In this document: positions 10,004 through 23,326 of the stretch, piece by piece
Layout: each line of letters starts with the position of its first letter
Position numbering within the stretch: position 1 is the stretch's first letter
Assembly: GCA_026414165.1 (NCBI GenBank)
Contig: JAOAJN010000002.1
Span: 97,830-161,829, forward strand
DNA: 64,000 bases
Origin: Candidatus Methanomethylicaceae archaeon
GTDB taxonomy: Archaea > Thermoproteota > Methanomethylicia > Methanomethylicales > Methanomethylicaceae
Reading direction: 5' to 3'
Notes under the pieces: generated by a model
The model's input: only the letters and a program-made list of their open reading frames with translations
Told to the model about the DNA's origin: nothing
The model's database searches: none
Position numbers and translations under genes: made by a program

Positions 10004-10933
10004 TTATTCGATGCCTAGCTGCTTGCAAGCAGCATCCACTTGTTCCTGTATATATCTGTAGTCGATTTCTCTTAGGTGTGCAAATCTGCCTTGAAGTTTC
10101 AAGTATTCGGATACGGGCTTTCTCTTAGGCGGCTTGTAGGACAGTTTAAACTGCCCGTCCTCTATCTCGTAAAGCGCCCACATTCCCGTATCTACCGCAA
10201 GTCGACCAACTCTCACTAGCAGCTCTGGCGAGAACTTCCAACCCTTGGGGCATGGCGTGTGTATTTGGACGTATGCAGGTCCTTTGACGGCTAGACCTTT
10301 CCTTATCTTAGTCATCAAGTCGAATGGGAACGAAGTGCTAGCTGTTGCAATGTATCGCACATTGGGGTGACCGGCCGCGATCATCTTCGGCAGGTCCTTC
10401 TTCACCCTGACGTTTCCAAGCCTCAGCATCTTGCCTGGAGGAGTGAATGTCGTCCATGCACCCCATGGGGTGAGGCTTGACGCTTGGATACCGGTGTTGG
10501 CATAGGATTCGTTGTCATAGGTCACTATCAGGTGGTCATGTCCAGAGAGCATTGCGCCAGAAATCGCTGCAAGACCGATGTCGGCAGCACCACCGTCACC
10601 TGCCAGACCAATTACGTGGATCTCTTCTTTCTTAATCTTGCCCTTGCGCATCATTGCTTTGTAGGCTGCGGCTGCCCCGCATACTGCAGAACCGATTCCT
10701 CCCAGCTGGGCATGCATCCATGGTATTGCCCACGGTGTTGTATTGTAGCTGCAGTTGGCAACGTACATGCATCCTGTTGCTGTTATACAGATTGCCCTTG
10801 GACCAGCAGCTTTGGCCAAAAATTTACATGCAAGAGCCGGACCGCATCCTTGACAGGTTCTGTGTCCTGCTACATAGTATTCCTCTTTCGGAGTGTCCTT
10901 GAGCGTCCTTATTTCTAATTTCTCCCAACTCAT
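10004..10933 (-). CDS. porB: Pyruvate:ferredoxin oxidoreductase, beta subunit
   Basis: 'GHRTCQGCGPALACKFLAKAAG', TPP motif 'GDGGAADIGLAA...YDNESYANTGIQ'. Confidence 0.93.
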   Translation of the reverse strand: MSWEKLEIRTLKDTPKEEYYVAGHRTCQGCGPALACKFLAKAAGPRAICITATGCMYVANCSYNTTPWAIPWMHAQLGGIGSAVCGAAAAYKAMMRKGKIKKEEIHVIGLAGDGGAADIGLAAISGAMLSGHDHLIVTYDNESYANTGIQASSLTPWGAWTTFTPPGKMLRLGNVRVKKDLPKMIAAGHPNVRYIATASTSFPFDLMTKIRKGLAVKGPAYVQIHTPCPKGWKFSPELLVRVGRLAVDTGMWALYEIEDGQFKLSYKPPKRKPVSEYLKLQGRFAHLREIDYRYIQEQVDAACKQLGIE

Positions 10934-10937
10934 ATTC

Positions 10938-12128
10938 TCACTCCCTTAATCCCACCCATTGTACCGTCTCTTTGACCACACCAGTCTCAGCAATCTCTTT
11001 CACTTGTTTGCAGATCGATCTCATGGCATTCACTGTGATCTCCCTACCTCCAAGACCTATCAGGTAGTTAACTACCTTTGGCCTCTCGGGCACATCATAT
11101 AGTGCGGAGCGAACTTCTTGGAAGATTATTCCGCCATAGTTTGCAGCCCCGAAGGAGAAGTCGTTGTCTAGCACGGCGACCACTTTGAACTTTCTTAGAG
11201 CATTTACTACATCTTCGGTTGCAAATGGTCTAAATCTCCTAAGTTTCACGTATCCAACATTTATTCCCTCTTTTTTAAGTTGCCAGATGGCTGCCTTTGC
11301 GGGCATTGCCATACCCCCCATCCCTATAAGGGCTACATCGGCGTCTTCTGTATTTATTTCCTCAACGAATGGCGGTCCTCCTCTTCCAAAGACTTTATAG
11401 AACTCCTCATGAACTTTTCTTGTCACTTCGATAGCATTTCGCATGCCTTGGTCCATTTGTCTTCTAATCTCAGCACCCCAATAGTAGTCAACATGTGGAG
11501 CTATTGAGAGAGGTTTGTCAGGGTGTAGCACATTTATCCTTGGTGGCGGTGTGGGCGGTAAGAACTCCCTTGCAACCTCTGTCTCAGGCAGATCCACTGG
11601 AAATCTAACATGGGTTATAAAGTTTCCGTCGCAGCATACAACATATGGTAGGAGAACGCTTGGATCTTCTGCAATCTTGTATCCCATAAGGGTCATATCA
11701 TAAGCTTCTTGCGGGTTTTCCGGCCAGCACATCATCCACCCTGTATCTCTCGTAATAAGTGCTTCAGTGTGTTCCACTCCAAAGTTTCCTGGATCGTCTA
11801 GGGCACGGTTTCCTACCATTGCCACCACAGGTGCCCTGTCAGCAGGCGTTACTACCAGCGCCTCATGTGCAAATGCCCAACCAATTCCTGCGCTACCTGT
11901 GAATACTCTCGCTCCGCAAGCTGCTGCATGCTTTGCTATCTCGAATTGTGTATGCTCTGAGTCGGCAACTATGTATTCTGCATCGAACTCTCCATCTGCG
12001 ATCATCTTTGCCAACGAGTTCATTACTCCAGTGTAGGGTCTAATCGGGTATGCTGATATCACATCTACATCTGCATGTTTTACTGCTGTTGCAATAGCTG
12101 TGGTTCCAGTTGTTATCATTTTCACCAT
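10938..12128 (-). CDS. porA: Pyruvate:ferredoxin oxidoreductase, alpha subunit
   Basis: 'AYPIRPYTGVMNSLAKMIADGEFDAEYIVADSEH'; clustered with porB/porD/porC. Confidence 0.93.
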   Translation of the reverse strand: MVKMITTGTTAIATAVKHADVDVISAYPIRPYTGVMNSLAKMIADGEFDAEYIVADSEHTQFEIAKHAAACGARVFTGSAGIGWAFAHEALVVTPADRAPVVAMVGNRALDDPGNFGVEHTEALITRDTGWMMCWPENPQEAYDMTLMGYKIAEDPSVLLPYVVCCDGNFITHVRFPVDLPETEVAREFLPPTPPPRINVLHPDKPLSIAPHVDYYWGAEIRRQMDQGMRNAIEVTRKVHEEFYKVFGRGGPPFVEEINTEDADVALIGMGGMAMPAKAAIWQLKKEGINVGYVKLRRFRPFATEDVVNALRKFKVVAVLDNDFSFGAANYGGIIFQEVRSALYDVPERPKVVNYLIGLGGREITVNAMRSICKQVKEIAETGVVKETVQWVGLRE

Positions 12129-12134
12129 TTTCTC

Positions 12135-12455
12135 TCACTCCTTAAAATCTAATTCGTTTTTCATTTCAATAGCTTTTGTTGGACAGACTTCAGCGCAGAC
12201 CCCACAGCCCTTGCAATAGTCTAAGATTACAGCAAAGAGTGTTTCTGGATCTGGACTTCTAGCGGGCTCTGGGCAGTATAGCCAGCATAGACCGTCCTTA
12301 TTACATTTATTAGGGTCGGTTACTGGTCTTAATGTTCTAAAGGTCGCAGTCTTATAGTGAGGGTTTGGACCGTTCACGGGAGGTGCAAAGACTACTATTC
12401 CTACAGGCATTTCCTTCCAACTTGGAAACTCTTCAAATTTCTTTGTCATTTTCAT
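12135..12455 (-). CDS. porD: Pyruvate:ferredoxin oxidoreductase, delta (ferredoxin) subunit
   Basis: Ferredoxin motif 'CKGCGVCAEVCPTKAIEM'; second cluster altered ('CNKDGLCWLYCPEPAR'). Confidence 0.9.
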   Translation of the reverse strand: MKMTKKFEEFPSWKEMPVGIVVFAPPVNGPNPHYKTATFRTLRPVTDPNKCNKDGLCWLYCPEPARSPDPETLFAVILDYCKGCGVCAEVCPTKAIEMKNELDFKE

Positions 12456-13156
12456 ACCTCCTTTGCTTTGGCGATCTTATATGCCTCCCTCAATACTTCA
12501 GCCTTCTTCATGCCCTCAGCAATGTACCTTTCTTTAACCGCTGCAACCATCGCACGATATGAAACTATGCCAGGCGCGACCTTTAACATGGCACCTAATA
12601 GAGGAACAATTATGATTTTGTCCATCCCGCTAGCGTCTATTGTAACCAATTTGTATTTCTTATTCGTTGGCTGAATGAAATTCAATAGTTCATCCGGACT
12701 TCTCTTACTGTTAACGATTATGGCGCCACCGTCCTTAAGCTTTTCATGGATTGGCTGTAGCCCTATGTGTGCCCAAGGCTCCCCTCCTTTTACAAGGGTA
12801 TCGTCTAAAACTAATACAGCGTTAACTTCTGCTGGTTCGTATAACATTGCCTCTGGGGCCAATTCATCGTAGCACATTTTGTAGTATGTCATATCACATA
12901 CAGGTGCCCCTAGTTGGCTAAGTTCCGCCTCAACATCATCTGCATCTGCCCAGAACTGTTGTTCTGAAGGTTTCGAGACTATTGCAAAGCCTTTAATTGG
13001 TATTCCAACTCTGTCGGGCGCATCGTCATACCTTTCGTATCCCAAAGAAGGGTTGCCATCTTTATCAGCTGCGTTGCAGATAATCTCAGCAGCAGCTCTT
13101 AGTAGAGCGGTCTGCGTAACCCCTCTTCCATCAAATTCTACTGCATATAATACCAT
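12452..13156 (-). CDS. porC: Pyruvate:ferredoxin oxidoreductase, gamma subunit
   Basis: 'EFDGRGVTQTALLRAAAEIICNA', 'GIPIKGFAIVS'; overlaps porD. Confidence 0.88.
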   Translation of the reverse strand: MVLYAVEFDGRGVTQTALLRAAAEIICNAADKDGNPSLGYERYDDAPDRVGIPIKGFAIVSKPSEQQFWADADDVEAELSQLGAPVCDMTYYKMCYDELAPEAMLYEPAEVNAVLVLDDTLVKGGEPWAHIGLQPIHEKLKDGGAIIVNSKRSPDELLNFIQPTNKKYKLVTIDASGMDKIIIVPLLGAMLKVAPGIVSYRAMVAAVKERYIAEGMKKAEVLREAYKIAKAKEV

Positions 13157-13167
13157 TTTTTATCACC

Positions 13168-13455
13168 TCATGGTGGCGGTTCATATTTTTCTTCGATTAC
13201 TTGCTTTGTCCAAGCAACTCTTGCAACAGCACCGTCATCAACCTCCAGCCTCTCTGCCACTGCCTTACCGATCAAAGCAGTTCCTACAGCAACACTTGAA
13301 TCTGCCTTTGCCTTTACAGTCCAAGCTCTTGAGGGTGTGTATAGCTCTACGAGTTCGCCAGCTTTTGCACCTATGTAGCTTAGGTCGGTCGGATTAAAAA
13401 CGCCCTCGTCGCCAGCAATGTTTACCACTTTTAAAGACACTTCTTTATCGGGCAT
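13168..13455 (-). CDS. Small protein of unknown function heading the por operon
   Basis: 95 aa beta-rich sequence 11 nt upstream of porC, same strand. Confidence 0.7.
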   Translation of the reverse strand: MPDKEVSLKVVNIAGDEGVFNPTDLSYIGAKAGELVELYTPSRAWTVKAKADSSVAVGTALIGKAVAERLEVDDGAVARVAWTKQVIEEKYEPPP

Positions 13456-13663: not shown

Positions 13664-13762
13664 TTACTCTCCAGGAGGTGCTATGACTTCAGAGTGCTCT
13701 TTTTTTAGTCTCTTGTCGGTTCTTTCTTTTCTCTTGAATGATGGTAGAACAATTTCACTCAT
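13664..13762 (-). CDS. Candidate Pup/UBact-like small protein modifier, 32 aa (MSEIVLPSFKRKERTDKRLKKEHSEVIAPPGE)
   Basis: Translated directly; not in the supplied ORF track. ATG, TAA stop, SD AGGTGATG 4 nt upstream, 6 nt after the stop of a PafA/Dop homolog; highly charged; ends Gly-Glu. Confidence 0.75.
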   Translation of the reverse strand: MSEIVLPSFKRKERTDKRLKKEHSEVIAPPGE

Positions 13763-13766
13763 GCAA

Positions 13767-13774
13767 CATCACCT
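13767..13774 (-). promoter_or_regulatory. Shine-Dalgarno for the 32-aa ORF, overlapping the stop codon of the upstream PafA/Dop homolog
   Basis: Minus-strand AGGTGATG followed by TTGC then ATG. Confidence 0.7.
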
Positions 13775-15367
13775 CACCATTAGCTCAGAAATCTCCTTTA
13801 GGGTATTCGAATTTAAAAGCGCCTCTGCCTCTTCCTTTCCGTATCTCAGCGGTTCTGGTAGTTGAATTATTCCTCCCTTAAAGTAGATCTTCCACCAGTT
13901 CATTTTAATAATCTCTGAAGAGAACTTCTTCAAAATGCCGGTCCTCAAATATTCCCTAGTATCGCTCGGGGAGTTCGTTAAACCTTTCTTTACTAATTCC
14001 TTAAGTGAAGTATCCAATGAAAACACCGTAGCTAGGTAAGAGGCTGAGGAAGCTGGATCGAATAGAGAGTCTGCTTCTTCTGTCTTATCACCCACATAGA
14101 AACCAGTAGACTCGTCTAATAGACTGTATTGGTTACAAAGCGTTACTGCCTCTTCATCCTTTACACCATACTCCTCTATGAGTTGCATTTTTGCTATCCA
14201 GTCCAGCCCTTCACCAATATCCTCAAATCGCCCTTCTATTAATTTTTGAGTCAAAAACTCTATAATCTTCAACACCTTATGATCTTCAGCATCACCTGAA
14301 CTTTCTATTAATCGCTCAGCAGCGTCTATGTAATATGCAAATATATCTGAAAGTACCCGTGCCCTTCCCCCATTTTTCAAATCTAACGTCTGATCTACAT
14401 TTTCTGTTTCCGATGCAACTTTTCTTACGGATTCAATTGGGTCTTTTATAGAAGGAGGAGCGGTCAGAAGACCCTCTTCAGCAGCTTTCAAAACAAAGAC
14501 TTCGAGAGCGTCTCTAATGAATATCTGAAAGTCACTTCGTATAGCTTCAAAATTTATGTCGTGTAGCCTCCAATATTTTTCCGGATCGGCATGCGGCTCG
14601 TCACGTTGGTTCAGAAATCCTCTCTCAACTGTAGTGTCTATCGAAGAAGGCTGCTTTATGAATATCGACCTTGGTGAGACTACATATACAAGGCGATCTC
14701 CGCGAAGTCTTGAACTGGTCGGCGGGTCAAATATATATGTATCTCTTATTGGCAAAATACCGCCTCCGCTAATCACAGGTATCCTGCTTATGATGAATGG
14801 GATTAACATCTCTTCTACTGAATTCCATCGGTCAAAGTTGAATACATTTCTTTTTAAACAATAATTCCCGTGGGTACCCCAAGCTACAGATTCGTATCCG
14901 AGTGATCCTTTAAGAAGGCTAGTATTACTCTTATAGCAGTAAATATTTCCAAGCTTATCCCTTAAATATTTGATCCCCAAAAATGCTAACCTCTCTGCGA
15001 CTTTATCGTATATAACCGCGTCTATTGGGTTTCTAAAAACTGGGGTTGAGAGCTCTAGATGTTCTGCATCATCATAGATGCGCATTCCATTGAGCGCAAC
15101 TTCGTATGGACCTTGATAAAATAGCCAAGAATCTAAAAGGCCCCTTTCATAGGTCAAATTGCCTACTTCATCCTCCACGCTCCAGTTTACTTCTGTTACA
15201 AAGCCTAGGCTTTTAATTGAATTCATAGTTCTTCCTATGAGGTCTGAGAGCTGTATCCCAGGAAGTATTGGGGGGTATTTGTTTACACTGAATTCATATT
15301 CTATCCCTCTAGCCATCTCTCTCAAGATCTTCATAAAATTCACTCTGTATTTTTTTATCACCCTCAA
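13769..15367 (-). CDS. PafA/Dop family protein (Pup ligase/depupylase homolog), copy A
   Basis: 'ARGIEYEFS' (GIExEfg), 'LNGMRIYDDAEHLELSTPVFRNPIDAVIYDKVAER', 'YESVAWGTHGNYCLKR', 'FLNQRDEPHADPEKYWRLHDI', C-terminal 'GLDWIAKMQLIEEY' and 'NWWKIYFKG' match PafA/Dop landmarks in order. Start may be 15334. Confidence 0.88.
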   Translation of the reverse strand: MRVIKKYRVNFMKILREMARGIEYEFSVNKYPPILPGIQLSDLIGRTMNSIKSLGFVTEVNWSVEDEVGNLTYERGLLDSWLFYQGPYEVALNGMRIYDDAEHLELSTPVFRNPIDAVIYDKVAERLAFLGIKYLRDKLGNIYCYKSNTSLLKGSLGYESVAWGTHGNYCLKRNVFNFDRWNSVEEMLIPFIISRIPVISGGGILPIRDTYIFDPPTSSRLRGDRLVYVVSPRSIFIKQPSSIDTTVERGFLNQRDEPHADPEKYWRLHDINFEAIRSDFQIFIRDALEVFVLKAAEEGLLTAPPSIKDPIESVRKVASETENVDQTLDLKNGGRARVLSDIFAYYIDAAERLIESSGDAEDHKVLKIIEFLTQKLIEGRFEDIGEGLDWIAKMQLIEEYGVKDEEAVTLCNQYSLLDESTGFYVGDKTEEADSLFDPASSASYLATVFSLDTSLKELVKKGLTNSPSDTREYLRTGILKKFSSEIIKMNWWKIYFKGGIIQLPEPLRYGKEEAEALLNSNTLKEISELMVR

Positions 15368-15455
15368 ATATAAAACGGTTTTGTCATAAATAAGAGTGTA
15401 ATTCGTTATTCTTCCAATTGGTTAAAATGGAATAAAATACTATACTGTCAAAAGG

Positions 15456-16868
15456 TTACTTCGTAATTTTTGGTGCTCCTTTAATCATCTCTATAAAATC
15501 AGCAATCCGCTCTTCATCCCACCCATTTAAATCTAGCATTGGATGAACCATTCCATTTACTACAATATTCGCCCATCCAATGTCATCCAACCACTGACTT
15601 AGTTGTTTTGCAATTTTAACCCTTGCAAACCCTCTTGAACCTTTGGGAGGGAAGAGCACAGCCCTCGAGAGATCTTCATCACTAATTAGAGCAACTAGTG
15701 CTAATTCTTCTTGAATGCGCTCATAAGTAGCGTCGGTAACTGCGGTAAACTGGTTATTAGCAACTACTTTCTTTTCCTCCACAGAATCTTCACTTTCAAA
15801 GTATTTTTCAAAATTTTTCTCAATAATCTCTAGTTTTGTTATCCACTCAACTCTCTCTTTTAGAGATTGAAAATTCCCCTCTTCTAGCTTTTTCAAGGCA
15901 TACTTGAACTCTTGGATGGCATACTTGTCCCAATCATTAACCTCTTCTATCGAAAACAACTTTTCTATTCCTTCAAGATAGTATGACAAAAGATCAAAAA
16001 CAGTAACCTCTTTGTCTCCCTCCGTTTGTATTTCCCAATCACCCTCCGGTGATATTGCAATAAGCTTTGTAGCCTCAACAGGATCTTTAACCTTAGGCAC
16101 GTTTTTTATCAATCCTCGCTCAATGCCCCTAATGATGTAGGAGGTTATTGCCTGTCTCATGAAAGTAGTCCACTCAGATCTTGCACCCTCACCATTCGTA
16201 ATCTGTACCCTCCTAAATTTCGGATCCGTATGGGGTTCATCTACACCTCCTATTAATGGCCATGATCCAAAAACTTTATCAGCAAACACACTTTTTACAA
16301 ACATCTGTCTTGGAGAGATCATGAACTTTCCAAAATAATACCCTCCCACCCCTGTGAAGACTTGCCTAACAACTAAGTAAGGGATAAGTTCCTTGATGCC
16401 TTCTGAGAATCCTGCCCTGTCTACCAAATAAGACTCATGTAAGCCACGGGTTGTATATTCGTGTTCTGAACGAGTTGCACTAATCTTATAGCAATGAACT
16501 CTGAGGCCACTCTCTCTTTCGTATTCTTCGGAGGCAATTCTTGCATAAATCTCTGTCGCCTTTTCGTAGGTTAGAGTGGTAAACGGATCAGGACATTCGG
16601 GCGTGGTTATCTCGAGAACGTCATATACTCCAGGAGTGGCACTCATATCACCATATGCTCTTCCACCATTAATTAAAAATTGTGTAGACTCACAACCTCT
16701 TTTTATCAGAAATGGAGGGTCCCCTTTAGGAGGCATTTTGTATCTTCTGAGCGCCTCTAATAGTTCGTTAACATATGCCTTTCCATGAATGTATGGTATG
16801 CAATACTCCACTTCAACGCCCTGCCACATCTTCAAAAAAAACACCGGTATTGATTGTAGTTTAATCAA
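15456..16868 (-). CDS. PafA/Dop family protein (Pup ligase/depupylase homolog), copy B
   Basis: 'GVEVEYCIP', 'INGGRAYGDMS...YDVLEITTPECPDPFTTLTYEKATE', 'EYTTRGLHESYLVDRAGFSEGIKELIPYLVVRQVFTGVGGY', 'PLIGGVDEPHTDPKFRRVQI', 'RVEWITKLEIIEKNF'; paralog of copy A. Confidence 0.88.
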   Translation of the reverse strand: MIKLQSIPVFFLKMWQGVEVEYCIPYIHGKAYVNELLEALRRYKMPPKGDPPFLIKRGCESTQFLINGGRAYGDMSATPGVYDVLEITTPECPDPFTTLTYEKATEIYARIASEEYERESGLRVHCYKISATRSEHEYTTRGLHESYLVDRAGFSEGIKELIPYLVVRQVFTGVGGYYFGKFMISPRQMFVKSVFADKVFGSWPLIGGVDEPHTDPKFRRVQITNGEGARSEWTTFMRQAITSYIIRGIERGLIKNVPKVKDPVEATKLIAISPEGDWEIQTEGDKEVTVFDLLSYYLEGIEKLFSIEEVNDWDKYAIQEFKYALKKLEEGNFQSLKERVEWITKLEIIEKNFEKYFESEDSVEEKKVVANNQFTAVTDATYERIQEELALVALISDEDLSRAVLFPPKGSRGFARVKIAKQLSQWLDDIGWANIVVNGMVHPMLDLNGWDEERIADFIEMIKGAPKITK

Positions 16869-16910: not shown

Positions 16911-17840
16911 ATGAAAGTTCTTATCACTGGCGGGGGCGGGTTCGTTGGAAGTAGATTAACAAAAGCTTGCCTGAATAGAGGCTATGAAGTTGTGGTGGTT
17001 GATAAGTCAAAGGGCGAGCTTGAAGGGTATATGCATCCAAATATGAAGTTCATAGAAACGAGCGTAGAAGATAAGAACCTTATAAAAATTGCTGCAGAAG
17101 GATGTAATGTGGCTTACTATTCTGCATGGTCTTTTGCTGAAAAACTTATGGAAGGATTTACTATAGATGTGATCGGCTTTATTAACTTTATGGAGGCTTG
17201 TTGCGATGCTGGCGTGAGGCATGTATTGTTTCCGAGCAGTTCTGTTATTTATGGCGAGCCAATAAAATATCCTATAACGGAAGATCATCCTCTTCTAGTA
17301 GAAAGGTCTAGGGCACCAGTGCATGCTATAACCAAACTTGCTGTTGAGAAAATTATGGAGATATATTATAGGGAAAGAGGGATACCCTTTACAATATTTA
17401 GGTTTTGGTGGGCGTTTAGTGATGAGCGCATACCTGGAGGCACACTAAGAAAAATAATTGACAGTGCGATTAAAGGAGAGTCGCTTAATGTGCCGAGGGC
17501 ATCCTCAGGCAGCGTATTATATGCCCAAGACTTGATTAGAGCTTTTGAAGTGGCCACACTCAATGAACGTGCGTTTGGAAAAACCTACAACATTCTTAGC
17601 TTCAATATAACTTGGAAGGAATTTCTAGAAACTATAGTCGAATTAGCAGGCTCAAAGTCTTCTGTTACGGAAGTTGACCCTTTGGAATGGAAGGGATCAG
17701 GATTTCTGACTGGTAAGTGGATTCTTGACGACTCAAAAATAAAGACAGATCTCGGTTTTGTCCCAGATGAGGCATCTGCTAAAAGGGCTTTTATAGAAGC
17801 CCTTAAAAAGACCATTGAGTCAAGGAGGACTGCTCTTTAG
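16911..17840 (+). CDS. NAD-dependent epimerase/dehydratase (extended SDR)
   Basis: 'ITGGGGFVGSRLTKACLNRGYEVVVVDKS' Rossmann; 'ITKLAVEKIMEIYYRERGIPFTIFRF'. Confidence 0.88.
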   Translation: MKVLITGGGGFVGSRLTKACLNRGYEVVVVDKSKGELEGYMHPNMKFIETSVEDKNLIKIAAEGCNVAYYSAWSFAEKLMEGFTIDVIGFINFMEACCDAGVRHVLFPSSSVIYGEPIKYPITEDHPLLVERSRAPVHAITKLAVEKIMEIYYRERGIPFTIFRFWWAFSDERIPGGTLRKIIDSAIKGESLNVPRASSGSVLYAQDLIRAFEVATLNERAFGKTYNILSFNITWKEFLETIVELAGSKSSVTEVDPLEWKGSGFLTGKWILDDSKIKTDLGFVPDEASAKRAFIEALKKTIESRRTAL

Positions 17841-18005
17841 TTTCTTTTCCTTTTTCTTTCGTTCCAGTGTCTCGAGCTCAACAATCTTCTCACAGTCTGA
17901 ACAAAGTTCCTTAGGCTCTTCAGCTATAACGTAAAACCTTCTTCCACATCTTACACATTGAGTATATATAAATTCACTTTCACCATAACGCTCCATGAAT
18001 AGCAC
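17820..18005 (-). CDS. Small zinc-ribbon protein
   Basis: 61 aa with 'CVRCGRRF...LCSDC'; convergent, 21-nt overlap with the epimerase. Confidence 0.65.
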   Translation of the reverse strand: MLFMERYGESEFIYTQCVRCGRRFYVIAEEPKELCSDCEKIVELETLERKKKEKKLKSSPP

Positions 18006-18069
18006 CTCGTTATCTTATATTTAAAACAAATTCTGACTTTTATTCTTTAAAAAAAAAGAAAAAATTGGA

Positions 18070-19527
18070 TTATCCAGTAGGTATGGCGCCCACCACAAAT
18101 GTGCAATAGAACAGAGACACCAAGTAGAATGCGGCGCCGCCTGCTATTACAATTGTTGAAAGCCAAGACATCCTGCAACGCTTCGGCAACATCTTATTAT
18201 TAACATATAGCAGCAGCAGGCAATAGCTACCCATAATGAGTGGTGATAGGAATGCTAGCAAGTCCAACATGAATGCGGGCCCTCTTGCCGCACCGCTTAC
18301 AGTGGTTATTATGCCAATTATAGTAACAGTTGCCACCCAGATGTAGTACCACTTCCTCATGCCTAGCTTCTGTGCTCCTTTGAATAGCTGGAAAGTCATA
18401 TCTGCCTGTCCTCTTGCGAAGGCATCAAATATGCCAAAGCTCATCTTCCAGCCAACTAAGAACATTACAATGAACCACAGTGGATAGAGAACGGGCGATA
18501 TGTATGTGAACGCGGAGGCAATGGCATCTATAGCTCTCAAAGTCGCCCCTGCCCTAATTGCTGATAAAGCAGCAGGACTCAGTTCCGCAGCCCTCATGCT
18601 TAATACGGTGAAGAAGAGTGTTGTAAAGTAAGTTATGAGTCCGAAGCTGATTAATGCATCATATATATTCAGTTTCCTCCAACGTTTCCATTTGTCCATC
18701 TCTTCGTCCAAGTTGACATCGAAGTAGAAGCCGCTATCTCGCCATTTATCCTCTTTTCCAAAGATTAGTCCAGTAATCTTGGGCATATATCCAGACATAC
18801 CTGCGCCCTCTTCTCTTGCCCAAAGTGTGTACCACATCTGCTGCATTCCTGAAGGACCCATAAATGCAAGCGCACCAACGAGTAGCGGCAGCCAGGTCTT
18901 CGTACTCATCATATCGGTCCAGTAACCGAATGCGACGGTTCCGTAAAGTGCTTGTCCCCAATGCTCAGGTTTTCCCACTAATACGGCAACGCCAAATGAT
19001 ACGGCAATCATCATTGAGATGGCAATTAACAACAGGAATTTGACTGTCTTATAGACTTGATAGGGGCTCAGAATCAATATCGCTGCTATAACACAAAGAC
19101 TTATAACTGCGATCATTACCCAGTCTACCTTTAATAGCATTCCAAGGGCGCCTGAGCCTGTAACGACATGTCCAGGCCATATATAAACTAATATGGCCAC
19201 AATATAGAAGTACCACATTACTATTGGATGGATTCTTTTTCCTGCAGTGAATATGCTCTCGCCAGAGAAATAGGTCCACCGAGCGATCTCCATAGTGACG
19301 AAGATCTGGATGACTAGACCAACTGTTGCTAGCCATCGTACTTCTGGACCAAAAACAATAACTAGCCTAGGCCACATGAAAGTCTCGCCCATTCCAACGC
19401 CAAGGGCTGCTAATATTAGACCAGGACCAAGTATTTTGCGTATGCTAACCGGACCGGGGTCGTTGAGAACTCGCAGCTCCAATGGGGGGCCTCTTCCTAC
19501 CCTAAGCTCCTTTATTTCCTGTCCCAT
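18070..19527 (-). CDS. Nramp-like divalent metal transporter homolog (divergent)
   Basis: 'KILGPGLILAALGVGMGETFMWPRLV' N-terminal TM1-like signature; approx. 11 TMs; long hydrophilic loop in the middle. Confidence 0.65.
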   Translation of the reverse strand: MGQEIKELRVGRGPPLELRVLNDPGPVSIRKILGPGLILAALGVGMGETFMWPRLVIVFGPEVRWLATVGLVIQIFVTMEIARWTYFSGESIFTAGKRIHPIVMWYFYIVAILVYIWPGHVVTGSGALGMLLKVDWVMIAVISLCVIAAILILSPYQVYKTVKFLLLIAISMMIAVSFGVAVLVGKPEHWGQALYGTVAFGYWTDMMSTKTWLPLLVGALAFMGPSGMQQMWYTLWAREEGAGMSGYMPKITGLIFGKEDKWRDSGFYFDVNLDEEMDKWKRWRKLNIYDALISFGLITYFTTLFFTVLSMRAAELSPAALSAIRAGATLRAIDAIASAFTYISPVLYPLWFIVMFLVGWKMSFGIFDAFARGQADMTFQLFKGAQKLGMRKWYYIWVATVTIIGIITTVSGAARGPAFMLDLLAFLSPLIMGSYCLLLLYVNNKMLPKRCRMSWLSTIVIAGGAAFYLVSLFYCTFVVGAIPTG

Positions 19528-19685
19528 AGGAACCCCTAATTTTTTTTGAGGTTTTGGTATTTATAAAGTTTTGTTTAATTTTTATAAGTAAAAGCAAATT
19601 ATAATTCTGTTTATTAGAGGATTATTAAAAAACTCTTCCTTCTTTTATAAATTAGTTTTATTACAAATTTATATGGAATCGTGAC

Positions 19686-20183
19686 TTAAATTTTTGTACA
19701 ATAGCAAACAATGCTTCTTAGCGGCCCTTCCAAGTAAGTAATGTCTTCATCTATAGCATCGATGGGAAGGTTCGTGAATGCACCAATCAGTCTATTAATT
19801 TTTTTACATAGAATCATATATCCAATATACTGCTGAGGTTTTGGAGGGTTTAAGAACTTCTTGTATGTAAATGTCACTCTTATAAATCGGAATTCATGTT
19901 CCCCCTCAACATGTCCAGTATTTTCCAATACTTTCATATCCCTTATTTTTTTGTCCTTTGTTTGTGAAAAGATCTCCTCAATGTACTCTTTAAGTGAAAA
20001 TTCATTTCCCTCTTTAACTGCCGCACTCTTTATGGAGTCGAGAGGTTGCCATTGAACTGCTATGTAAAGCTTCTTTGGGGATATTATTGCCATCTTGCCA
20101 GACTGATATGCTGATTTTTCTGTAACTCTCAAACGCCAATCCGAAGGTGTTGTTATTCCAATATCGAAGAGCTGAAATTTCAT
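19686..20183 (-). CDS. Hypothetical protein
   Basis: 165 aa ORF, no convincing family. Confidence 0.6.
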   Translation of the reverse strand: MKFQLFDIGITTPSDWRLRVTEKSAYQSGKMAIISPKKLYIAVQWQPLDSIKSAAVKEGNEFSLKEYIEEIFSQTKDKKIRDMKVLENTGHVEGEHEFRFIRVTFTYKKFLNPPKPQQYIGYMILCKKINRLIGAFTNLPIDAIDEDITYLEGPLRSIVCYCTKI

Positions 20184-20330
20184 AGCTTCTCACTAATTTA
20201 GCGTATTTCCTCTTCTTTTAATTTATCCTTTAGGAAAAATATAAGCAAATAATAAAACTTATTATAAAAAATACAACTGTTAAATATGCCTTGTCAAAAA
20301 AGGAATTTTTAGCAAAGGAGTGAAAATACT

Positions 20331-21635
20331 TTGCTGGAATTGTTGACATTAATTTTATTTTTAGTAGTCATTGGCCTTATGATATGGGGTCCAATCGAAC
20401 GTGCCATTATTGGCGGCGTTGGAGTTGTTTTAATGATCATTATAGGTATAATAACTCCATACGAGGCTTTCGAATTAGTGGACTGGAATATATTAGCAAT
20501 CTTGGTGGGGCTTTGGATAGTTAGCTCCTACCTCATAAATGCTAAGATGCCAGAGGCTTTGATTTCAGCTGTACTCAAACGAACCAAGTCTCTAAATGCA
20601 GTAATTTTTGCGCTCATATTCAGTGCCGGAATTGTGACGATGTTTGTGGACAATGTCCTAGTCGTATTGTTATTCTGCCCGATAATGTTGACCATATGTA
20701 AGACGCTTAAAGTTGATCCGCTCTTGCCGACTGTGATGACGGGTCTTGCAGCGAACTTCATGGGCGTTGGACTGATGCTTGGAGATATAACGCCTCAGAT
20801 GTTGCACACAATAGCAGGTATGGAGTTCATGGACTTCGTGGTATTCCATGGTAAACCAGGATCATTCTTTGTACTTATTACAACCTTCATAATTATGCTG
20901 TTCATATATTCTAAGAGGATTCTCAAGTTTGATTATAAGGGCGACTTCCGTTCAATGCTAACATCTATAGCTGAGATCTCCAGCGAGAATAGAAAACTAC
21001 TCAAAGTATCGCTGTTTTTCTTCATAATAATCATCGTCTTGATGGCGCTGAGAAAAGTTCTTGAAGTTCCACTTGGAGCGATAGCCTTCTCGGGAGCGCT
21101 GGTTATGGCTTGCGTAATAGAACTGCTTCACAGAACGGGCAAATTGAAGGAGGCACCTACCTTTGCAGAGGTTCTTGGAGGGCTTGAGTGGCGAGCGGTT
21201 CTTTATTACGCATTCCTATTCGTGCTTGTTGGTTGTATTGAAAAGGCAGGATACATAAGGGCGATTGCAGAAGGCCTTCAGCCATTTCTGTTAAACCTTC
21301 AGGTTGGTGTCCCTCTCCTTTACTGGGTTTCGGCGAGTGTTGCTTCGGTGGTGCAATTTGATGCTTACAACCTAACCATGTTCAGAACCTTGGCAGATCT
21401 TGGACTGACGACTGGACTGAATGTTTGGCCGTACTTCTGGTCTGTTGCGTGGGCTGCCACACTGGCAAGCAATGCCACCATAGTAAGCGCTCCGGCATTG
21501 TACGTGACTTGGACGCTTATTGAAAAAGAGGGCTATAAACTAACAACGAAGGCGTTCCACTCAATAACTGTAAAATTTGCACTAATCACGCTTGTGATTA
21601 ATTTCATAATAACATTCCTTTGGAGCCAGCTTTAG
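20331..21635 (+). CDS. ArsB/NhaD-type (ion transporter superfamily) permease
   Basis: 'FVDNVLVVLLFCPIMLTICK', 'LGGLEWRAVLYYAFLFVLVGCIEKAG', multi-TM. Confidence 0.8.
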   Translation: MLELLTLILFLVVIGLMIWGPIERAIIGGVGVVLMIIIGIITPYEAFELVDWNILAILVGLWIVSSYLINAKMPEALISAVLKRTKSLNAVIFALIFSAGIVTMFVDNVLVVLLFCPIMLTICKTLKVDPLLPTVMTGLAANFMGVGLMLGDITPQMLHTIAGMEFMDFVVFHGKPGSFFVLITTFIIMLFIYSKRILKFDYKGDFRSMLTSIAEISSENRKLLKVSLFFFIIIIVLMALRKVLEVPLGAIAFSGALVMACVIELLHRTGKLKEAPTFAEVLGGLEWRAVLYYAFLFVLVGCIEKAGYIRAIAEGLQPFLLNLQVGVPLLYWVSASVASVVQFDAYNLTMFRTLADLGLTTGLNVWPYFWSVAWAATLASNATIVSAPALYVTWTLIEKEGYKLTTKAFHSITVKFALITLVINFIITFLWSQL

Positions 21636-21643
21636 ACACTTTT

Positions 21644-23326
21644 TCAATTTTTTATTTTATATTTAAGGTCGCTTAGAACAGCGCCAGTCGAAGCAGAAGT
21701 AACACTCATGCTGTATCTGTAGAAGACGCCTCTATCATATTTTGGCTTTTTGCCTTTCCAACCGGATAATCTTCTTCTGATCTCCTCATTCTCGACAAGT
21801 AGGTCTAATCTTCTATTAAGAATATCTATCCTGATGATGTCTCCGTCCTGTACCACGGCAATGGGACCACCTTCGGCAGCCTCAGGAGAGATATGACCGA
21901 CCATCATGCCGTGGGTGGCTCCAGAGAACCTACCGTCCGTCAGAAGGGCAACTTCCTCACCAAGTCCCATACCAACAAGCATAGAGGTCAGGGAGAGCAT
22001 CTCCCTCATTCCGGGACCGCCTTTAGGACCTTCATATCTGATAACTACTGCTTGACCTGCCTTAATCTTTCCATTAGAGGCGGCAGCAATACCGTCCTCC
22101 TCACAATCAAAAACCCGCGCCTCACCTTCAAAATAAGTCTTCTTTAATCCTGCGGTTTTTATAACCGCTCCGTCTGGAGCGAGGTTGCCAAAAAGCACAG
22201 CAAGTGCTCCCGTGGATCTAATGGGTTTTTCAAACGGTCTAATAGTGTCACCTATTATCTCCGCCGTGATCAAATTCTCCCCAACTGTTTTGCCAGTCAC
22301 TGTCATAAGGTCTTTCTTAATGAGTCCCTTCTCAGATAGCCTCTTCATGACAGCAGGAATCCCTCCAGCCTTGTCTAAATCTTCCACGGCTGTTTTTCCT
22401 GCAGGCATCATATCCACTAGATGAGGCGTCTTCTTGCTGATCTCGTCAAATGTTTCCAATTTTAAAGGCACTTCTGCCTCATTTGCTATAGCCATCAAGT
22501 GTAGAACGGCGTTAGTGGATCCCCCTAGAGCAACATCCACCGTTATAGCGTTTTTAATGGACCATTCGTTCACAATATCCTTGGGTTTAATGTCATTCTT
22601 TACAAGTTCCATGATCTGCATACCCGTCTTTTTAGCAAGCCTAACCCTTCTGGCATCCACAGCCGGTATGGTACCGCTACCCGGCAAGGATAACCCCATA
22701 GCCTCAATCATGCATGCCATAGTATTGGCTGTGTAAAGACCTGCACAAGAGCCTACACCAGGGCAAGCATACTCTTCGATCTCTTTTAGTTCATTTTCCG
22801 TGATCTTGCCGCTAAGGTAAGCACCCACACTCTCGAATGCCGAGTCTAGGCTCATCCTCTTACCGCGCCAAACTCCACATAACATAGGTCCACCTGTTAT
22901 GAAGATAGACGGAATATTTACCCTAAGTGCACCCATAACCATGCCTGGCTCTATTTTGTCACAGCTGCAGACAAACACCATACCATCAAATGCATGGGCT
23001 TTTGCAACCACTTCTATGGAATCTGCGATGATCTCCCTGCTGATTAATGGGCTCCTCATACCCTCGTGACCCATCGCTATGCCATCACATATGCCGATAG
23101 TATTAAATTCTAAGGGGGTGCCTCCCGCCATTCTAACCCCTGCCTTCACAGCCTCTGCGAGCCTGTTCAAGTGTATGTGTCCAGGAATAAGCTCATTCCA
23201 TGAGTTCGCTATACCTATTATAGGTCTATTAAGCTCATCATCTATCAAACCTAGCGCCTTTAAAAGGGCCCTATGAGGCGCTCTTTGCACGCCTCTTTTC
23301 ACTGTGTCTGAGATCATAAACCTCAC
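21644..23326 (-). CDS. ilvD: Dihydroxy-acid dehydratase
   Basis: 'VCSCDKIEPGMVMGALRVNIPSIFITGGPM', 'CPGVGSCAGLYTANTMACMIEAMGLSLPGSGTIPA', 'TDGRFSGATHGMMVGHISPEAAEGG'. Confidence 0.96.
   Translation of the reverse strand: MRFMISDTVKRGVQRAPHRALLKALGLIDDELNRPIIGIANSWNELIPGHIHLNRLAEAVKAGVRMAGGTPLEFNTIGICDGIAMGHEGMRSPLISREIIADSIEVVAKAHAFDGMVFVCSCDKIEPGMVMGALRVNIPSIFITGGPMLCGVWRGKRMSLDSAFESVGAYLSGKITENELKEIEEYACPGVGSCAGLYTANTMACMIEAMGLSLPGSGTIPAVDARRVRLAKKTGMQIMELVKNDIKPKDIVNEWSIKNAITVDVALGGSTNAVLHLMAIANEAEVPLKLETFDEISKKTPHLVDMMPAGKTAVEDLDKAGGIPAVMKRLSEKGLIKKDLMTVTGKTVGENLITAEIIGDTIRPFEKPIRSTGALAVLFGNLAPDGAVIKTAGLKKTYFEGEARVFDCEEDGIAAASNGKIKAGQAVVIRYEGPKGGPGMREMLSLTSMLVGMGLGEEVALLTDGRFSGATHGMMVGHISPEAAEGGPIAVVQDGDIIRIDILNRRLDLLVENEEIRRRLSGWKGKKPKYDRGVFYRYSMSVTSASTGAVLSDLKYKIKN

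Follow-up and report, generated by a model that had tools for sequence, protein, structure and literature searches.

A locus in the window (the whole 64,000-nucleotide stretch analysed, from a Candidatus Methanomethylicaceae genome) encodes two paralogous enzymes of the Pup ligase family and, directly behind the second, a 32-residue peptide that ends in Gly-Glu. We read it as a pupylation-like peptide-tagging system in which the peptide would act as a Pup-like reversible tag, and we put the probability of this reading at a little under 60%. The family membership of the enzymes, the conservation and coding status of the genes, their synteny, and the existence of a bacterial counterpart were observed directly. 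If the reading is true, an archaeal tag of 31–32 residues with its own enzyme pair would be, to our knowledge, the smallest such modifier, and Pup-type tagging would have arisen or spread beyond the proteasome setting. In a literature search, all descriptions of pupylation concerned bacteria, and those of protein tagging in archaea involved only ubiquitin-fold modifiers. The search returned no archaeal PafA/Dop–peptide system, but its coverage of subscription papers and preprints was incomplete, so this absence is not proof.

Results

All three genes lie on the minus strand. As full-length open reading frames, they occupy positions 15456–16868 (gene 1, 470 aa), 13769–15367 (gene 2, 532 aa), and 13664–13762 (32 aa), with 6 nt between gene 2 and the smallest frame, just as an earlier, sequence-only reading of this DNA had placed them. 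Comparison with relatives gave shorter likely starts, a TTG for gene 1 (15456–16835, 459 aa) and an ATG for gene 2 (13769–15334, 521 aa). The two larger proteins had been taken for PafA/Dop paralogs, and a Pfam search agreed: gene 1 and gene 2 matched PF03136 (Pup_ligase) at 174.5 and 180.1 bits (E 5.1e-51 and 1e-52), against a cut-off of 25 bits, and neither had a credible competing family. Among solved structures, Dop ranked best and PafA second. The NCBIfam models for Dop and PafA, whose cut-offs are 492 and 551 bits, gave only 112–167 bits. Some of the motifs that had been described as shared by the two proteins proved to belong to one of them. The motif given as RDEPHADPEKYRRLH in fact reads RDEPHADPEKYWRLH and occurs in gene 2 only, gene 1 carrying VDEPHTDPKFRRVQ, while GTHxNY is present in gene 2 (WGTHGNY) but reads RGLHESY in gene 1. 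AlphaFold models built for the two enzymes from 7–8 sequences were of low quality, with mean pLDDT of 52 and 55. The gene 1 model did rank PafA and Dop first in Foldseek, but the alignment was loose (rmsd about 23), and we give it no weight.

The relationship of the pair to the known enzymes was assessed in a tree that combined the archaeal and Tectomicrobia pairs with three Dop sequences and two PafA sequences from Actinobacteria. Three groups were recovered: gene 1, gene 2, and PafA together with Dop. Trees constrained to either pairing (gene 1 with PafA plus gene 2 with Dop, or gene 1 with Dop plus gene 2 with PafA) were worse by 47.5 log units, and the AU test gave p about 1e-6. By this phylogeny, which has few reference sequences and long branches, the enzyme pair is a third lineage that appears not to be orthologous to PafA and Dop.

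The active sites of the two enzymes differ (residue numbering follows Dop, and residue roles are from PMC8599861). All copies of gene 2 keep N87, R90, Y92, D94, H97, E99, H155, R205, T217, T218, R227, E229, H231, and H241, a nearly complete Dop site from which only H95 (replaced by Ala) and E156 (variable) deviate. Gene 1 retains ExE, R90, Y92, D94, and H155, and is without H97 and T217/T218. Two further residues are conserved in PafA and Dop alike: the phosphate-holding H241 is absent from all archaeal copies of gene 1, and R227 is missing from five of the seven, being present only in two genomes of genus g6. In the bacterial gene 1, the entire DEPH motif is gone. Gene 2 also carries a Dop-loop-like insert. 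Its ExE-to-NGxR stretch is 67 residues long, and a Trp follows the second ExE Glu at a distance of 37 residues, as it does in Nonomuraea Dop and as does Trp47, the key residue of the Dop-loop (PMC8599861). In gene 1, which has no Dop-loop, the stretch is 45 residues long, nearer to PafA (38–39), and lacks Trp in the archaeal copies. On these structure-based features gene 2 resembles Dop and gene 1 resembles PafA, so the default assignment would make gene 1 the ligase and gene 2 the deconjugase. Hecht et al. (PMC7947786) reported a partial alignment between the Dop-loop and the planctomycete paralogues that served as root for the Dop/PafA tree; the gene 2 insert may therefore be ancestral and is not alone proof of Dop identity. 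Given its altered site residues, gene 1 could be a ligase with a changed site or a partner subunit, possibly a non-catalytic partner of gene 2. The sequence-only reading had paired a ligase with a deconjugase. These roles are unproven: the phosphate-holding His, and in most copies the Arg as well, is gone from gene 1, and the pair are not PafA and Dop orthologues in the tree.

The candidate modifier is the 32-aa peptide MSEIVLPSFKRKERTDKRLKKEHSEVIAPPGE (13664–13762, minus strand). A frame of 31–32 codons stands directly behind gene 2 in all eight enzyme-bearing genomes, and ahead of every start is a purine-rich, Shine-Dalgarno-like GGTGA. Eighteen of 32 residues are invariant, including K20, K21, E22, and H23 and the run A28, P29, P30, G31, and E32, which gives an invariant -APPGE C-terminus (archaeal end LKKEHSEVIAPPGE). 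Pairwise pN does not exceed 0.114, with pS reaching saturation between genera. A chance open reading frame is ruled out by the pN/pS pattern, the presence in eight of eight genomes, and the 18 invariant residues; judged by these comparisons, the 32-codon frame is a real gene under purifying selection. Pup is recognised by a C-terminal G[EQ], and GE ends all eight archaeal peptides as well as the bacterial one described below. The tiny Gly-Glu-terminated neighbour noted earlier is thus a constant feature of these genomes, and the proposed synteny search found the three-gene order conserved in relatives, with the small frame beside the pair.

Searches and profile comparison gave the peptide no homology to Pup. 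There was no match in Pfam or NCBIfam and no Pup chain among the PDB search results, and hhalign against two Pups returned a probability of 0.1%, in a comparison to which short sequences lend little power. Over the last 27 residues the peptide is basic (+3), whereas the corresponding stretch of two actinobacterial Pups is acidic, at -7 and -4. These 27 residues are the enzyme-bound part of Pup (PMC8599861), and the length of the archaeal peptide approximates them. At 31–32 aa it is half as long as known Pups and falls short of the 50–90 residues of Pup (Iyer 2008, PMC2588565), a range into which the 53-aa bacterial peptide fits. None of the nine peptides (eight archaeal and one bacterial) contains cysteine.

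In a survey of 400 Thermoproteota genomes, PF03136 was found in eight, all within three genera of one family, and 14 searched genomes from the other genera of that family were without it. The carriers are hot-spring archaea, and the named relatives are MAGs of Candidatus Methanomethylicota (Verstraetearchaeota). In one genome (G003) the contig starts within gene 2, which is therefore only partly seen. The narrow spread of the module may reflect horizontal acquisition. Contamination was rejected as an explanation, since MAGs from three genera share the gene order, among them named Methanomethylicota records that come from several projects. Searches of viral contigs found nothing related to gene 1, gene 2, or the peptide. 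A record of 159 kb that bears the label “Bacteriophage sp.” (MT835496.1) carries actinobacterial Dop, Pup, and PafA genes; it was rejected as a phage carrier of relatives, is probably a fragment of an actinobacterial chromosome, and served only as a reference sequence. An 11.85-Mb Nonomuraea record in a plasmid collection (NZ_LT559118.1) is evidently a chromosome.

Outside the archaea, one Tectomicrobia MAG (G061) has homologues of gene 1 and gene 2 side by side (35% and 38% identity), both also above the PF03136 cut-off. No small GE-ending frame lies beside them on their contig. The archaeal peptide profile gave a single match in this genome, weak alone (E 0.36) and on another contig, to the C-terminus of a 53-aa frame ending LRKEHAAIVSPSGE followed by a stop (an SPSGE end). 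In the nine-peptide alignment, K21, E22, H23, P29, G31, and E32 are invariant, and a loose version of the C-terminal pattern had no matches in 17 Mb of simulated sequence. The 53-aa frame (contig C37, L074 218–379, minus strand) lies downstream of a luciferase-like (LLM) oxidoreductase gene and two AA_synth genes. At its tail, that LLM gene shares 86% DNA identity with the LLM gene that immediately precedes bacterial gene 1. We take the 53-aa peptide, although encoded on a different contig from the enzymes, as a probable homologue of the archaeal one. With the same pair and a similar-ended peptide in Tectomicrobia, the link between peptide and enzymes would span two domains.

In the archaea and the bacterium alike, the surrounding genes are metabolic ones. 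Next to the archaeal peptide gene, a 95-aa double-psi beta-barrel-like (DPBB) protein (13168–13455, minus strand) is encoded in all eight genomes; elsewhere only weak matches inside large frames were seen, and it was not found in the Tectomicrobia genome. Its C-terminal tail is of the type EEKYEPPP, with E89 and Y91–P95 invariant, and the protein has weak similarity to molybdopterin-binding, FmdD-like, and, in one copy, Cdc48-N domains. Beyond this associated gene lies a four-subunit 2-oxoacid:ferredoxin oxidoreductase of the oxalate-oxidoreductase type, also on the minus strand: gamma (12452–13156), delta, the ferredoxin subunit (12135–12455), alpha (10938–12128), and beta, the thiamine-diphosphate subunit (10004–10933). 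The closest solved structure to the alpha subunit is oxalate oxidoreductase (1e-104), which is also its best NCBIfam match, yet under the cut-off; it has YPIRP where three related archaea have YPITP. The gamma subunit co-occurs in eight of eight genomes at 70–100% identity, and in genome G009 it is fused to delta (L054 7003–8070). As the eight genomes are related and syntenic, the co-occurrence of neighbours is not independent evidence of function. About 200 nt with T-rich runs lie between the oxidoreductase genes and the peptide gene, and the complex is probably outside the tagging machinery. The flank at 16911–23326 holds an epimerase, an Nramp-type transporter, a 165-aa frame, a multi-pass transporter-like protein, and a dihydroxyacid-dehydratase-like gene, in an order largely kept across genera g1, g6, and g7. 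The bacterial neighbours are flavin/F420 LLM oxidoreductases, AA_synth proteins, an amidohydrolase, and ABC transporters; an oxalate-oxidoreductase-type alpha subunit is present in that genome too (45% identity, YPIRP).

Genes for the 20S proteasome and for AAA ATPases were present in all archaeal genomes tested, the proteasome genes lying away from the tagging locus. No ATPase exceeded the Mpa/ARC (TIGR03689) cut-off in any genome tested. In the Tectomicrobia genome no 20S proteasome was seen; the sole match to a proteasome fold, a weaker one spanning 201 aa, is read as HslV. Proteasomal degradation of tagged proteins in the archaea is possible; no link to the enzyme/peptide locus was found. 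The sequence-only reading had spoken of a complete module, and a modifier gene with an enzyme pair is indeed there, but with neither an Mpa/ARC ATPase nor proteasome linkage found, “complete” is too strong.

Discussion

Enzymes of this family catalyse ATP-dependent activation of a C-terminal Glu followed by amide formation, and from this chemistry we infer the reaction, the acceptor, and the direction in which each enzyme would work. The 31–32-residue peptide would be bound by gene 2 and possibly also by gene 1, and the gamma-carboxylate of its C-terminal Glu would be phosphorylated with ATP. The acyl-phosphate would then react with an amine to give an amide. A protein lysine is the likeliest acceptor, because in the literature consulted the PF03136 systems that include a G[EQ] partner all tag proteins (PMC2588565). 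Cleavage of the amide bond would fall to the other enzyme, or to the same one in reverse. In favour of this reading are the family membership of both enzymes, the selected and invariantly ended peptide behind gene 2, its Tectomicrobia counterpart, and the Dop-like site and insert of gene 2. Against it stand the missing Pup match and basic charge of the peptide, the residues lost from gene 1, the metabolic surroundings, and the separate contigs of peptide and enzymes in the bacterium.

The main rival to a protein tag is a peptide-carrier pathway, which we consider unlikely. One enzyme would load the C-terminal Glu of the peptide with a small amine, the other would release it, and in between the bound molecule would be processed by the oxidoreductases encoded nearby, in the manner of LysW or of amine gamma-glutamylation pathways. 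The metabolic surroundings in both domains (the oxalate-oxidoreductase-type complex in the archaea; LLM, AA_synth, amidohydrolase, and ABC genes in the bacterium) speak for such a role, as do the YPIRP-bearing alpha subunit of the bacterial genome and the lack of a visible 20S proteasome there. However, the neighbours differ wholly between the two domains, so that no shared pathway is evident, and the T-rich gap sets the archaeal oxidoreductase apart from the peptide. Protein tagging is, moreover, the only setting in which PF03136 enzymes are known to have a G[EQ] peptide linked to them (PMC2588565). A broader version, in which an encoded peptide would be a covalent small-molecule carrier with PafA/Dop-type loading and unloading in archaea and bacteria, and hence a third use of pupylation chemistry beyond protein tagging, seems to us slightly less probable still.

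The peptide might also not be a substrate at all. In that case the pair would take a small molecule as its substrate or form a heterodimeric ligase, and the peptide would be a regulator or an independent small protein. Degenerate active-site motifs in gene 1 are what a subunit would be expected to show, and heterodimers have been proposed for paired PafA paralogues (Iyer 2008, PMC2588565). The invariant GE terminus and the position directly behind gene 2 argue against this, as do the same-ended peptide in the other pair-bearing genome and the absence of even a loose form of this C-terminus from the simulated sequence, and we consider the idea improbable. Least probable of all is a canonical Pup–proteasome pathway acquired from Actinobacteria or Nitrospirota, with gene 1 as PafA, gene 2 as Dop, the peptide as Pup, and the archaeal 20S proteasome degrading whatever is tagged. 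The archaeal genomes do encode proteasomes and AAA ATPases, but orthology was rejected, the NCBIfam Dop and PafA scores were far under their cut-offs, profile comparison gave the peptide no Pup homology, no ATPase passed for Mpa/ARC, and the proteasome genes lie elsewhere.

A protein-tagging system, our preferred reading, has several points of comparison among small proteins with related ends. The UBact systems of Gram-negative bacteria combine small Gly-Glu/Gln-ended proteins with PafA/Dop-like enzymes. The amino-carrier proteins LysW and ArgW are small and end in Gly-Glu, the Glu being the attachment point; LysW binds zinc, and its loading is carried out by ATP-grasp enzymes. The archaeal peptide shares the small size and the Gly-Glu end with LysW and ArgW; unlike LysW, it is without zinc-binding cysteines, and its linked enzymes have the GS fold rather than ATP-grasp. 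PafA-like/Pup loci of planctomycetes and Plesiocystis contain PF03136 enzymes and a G[EQ] small protein without proteasome linkage, and their ligases carry a four-helix membrane insertion (PMC2588565). By description, the archaeal locus has the same combination of PF03136 enzymes and a G[EQ] small protein apart from proteasome genes, whereas the membrane insertion was not seen in the alignment of the archaeal enzymes. From the Pup/PafA/Dop systems of Actinobacteria and Nitrospirota it differs in its separate enzyme lineage, in a gene 1 without the conserved phosphate-site residues, in a basic peptide of 31–32 aa instead of a Pup of 50–90, and in the lack of any detected Mpa/ARC or proteasome linkage. 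What it has in common with them is two PF03136 paralogues beside a small Gly-Glu-ended protein, and a Dop-loop-like insert with the same-spaced Trp that is present in one enzyme and absent from the other.
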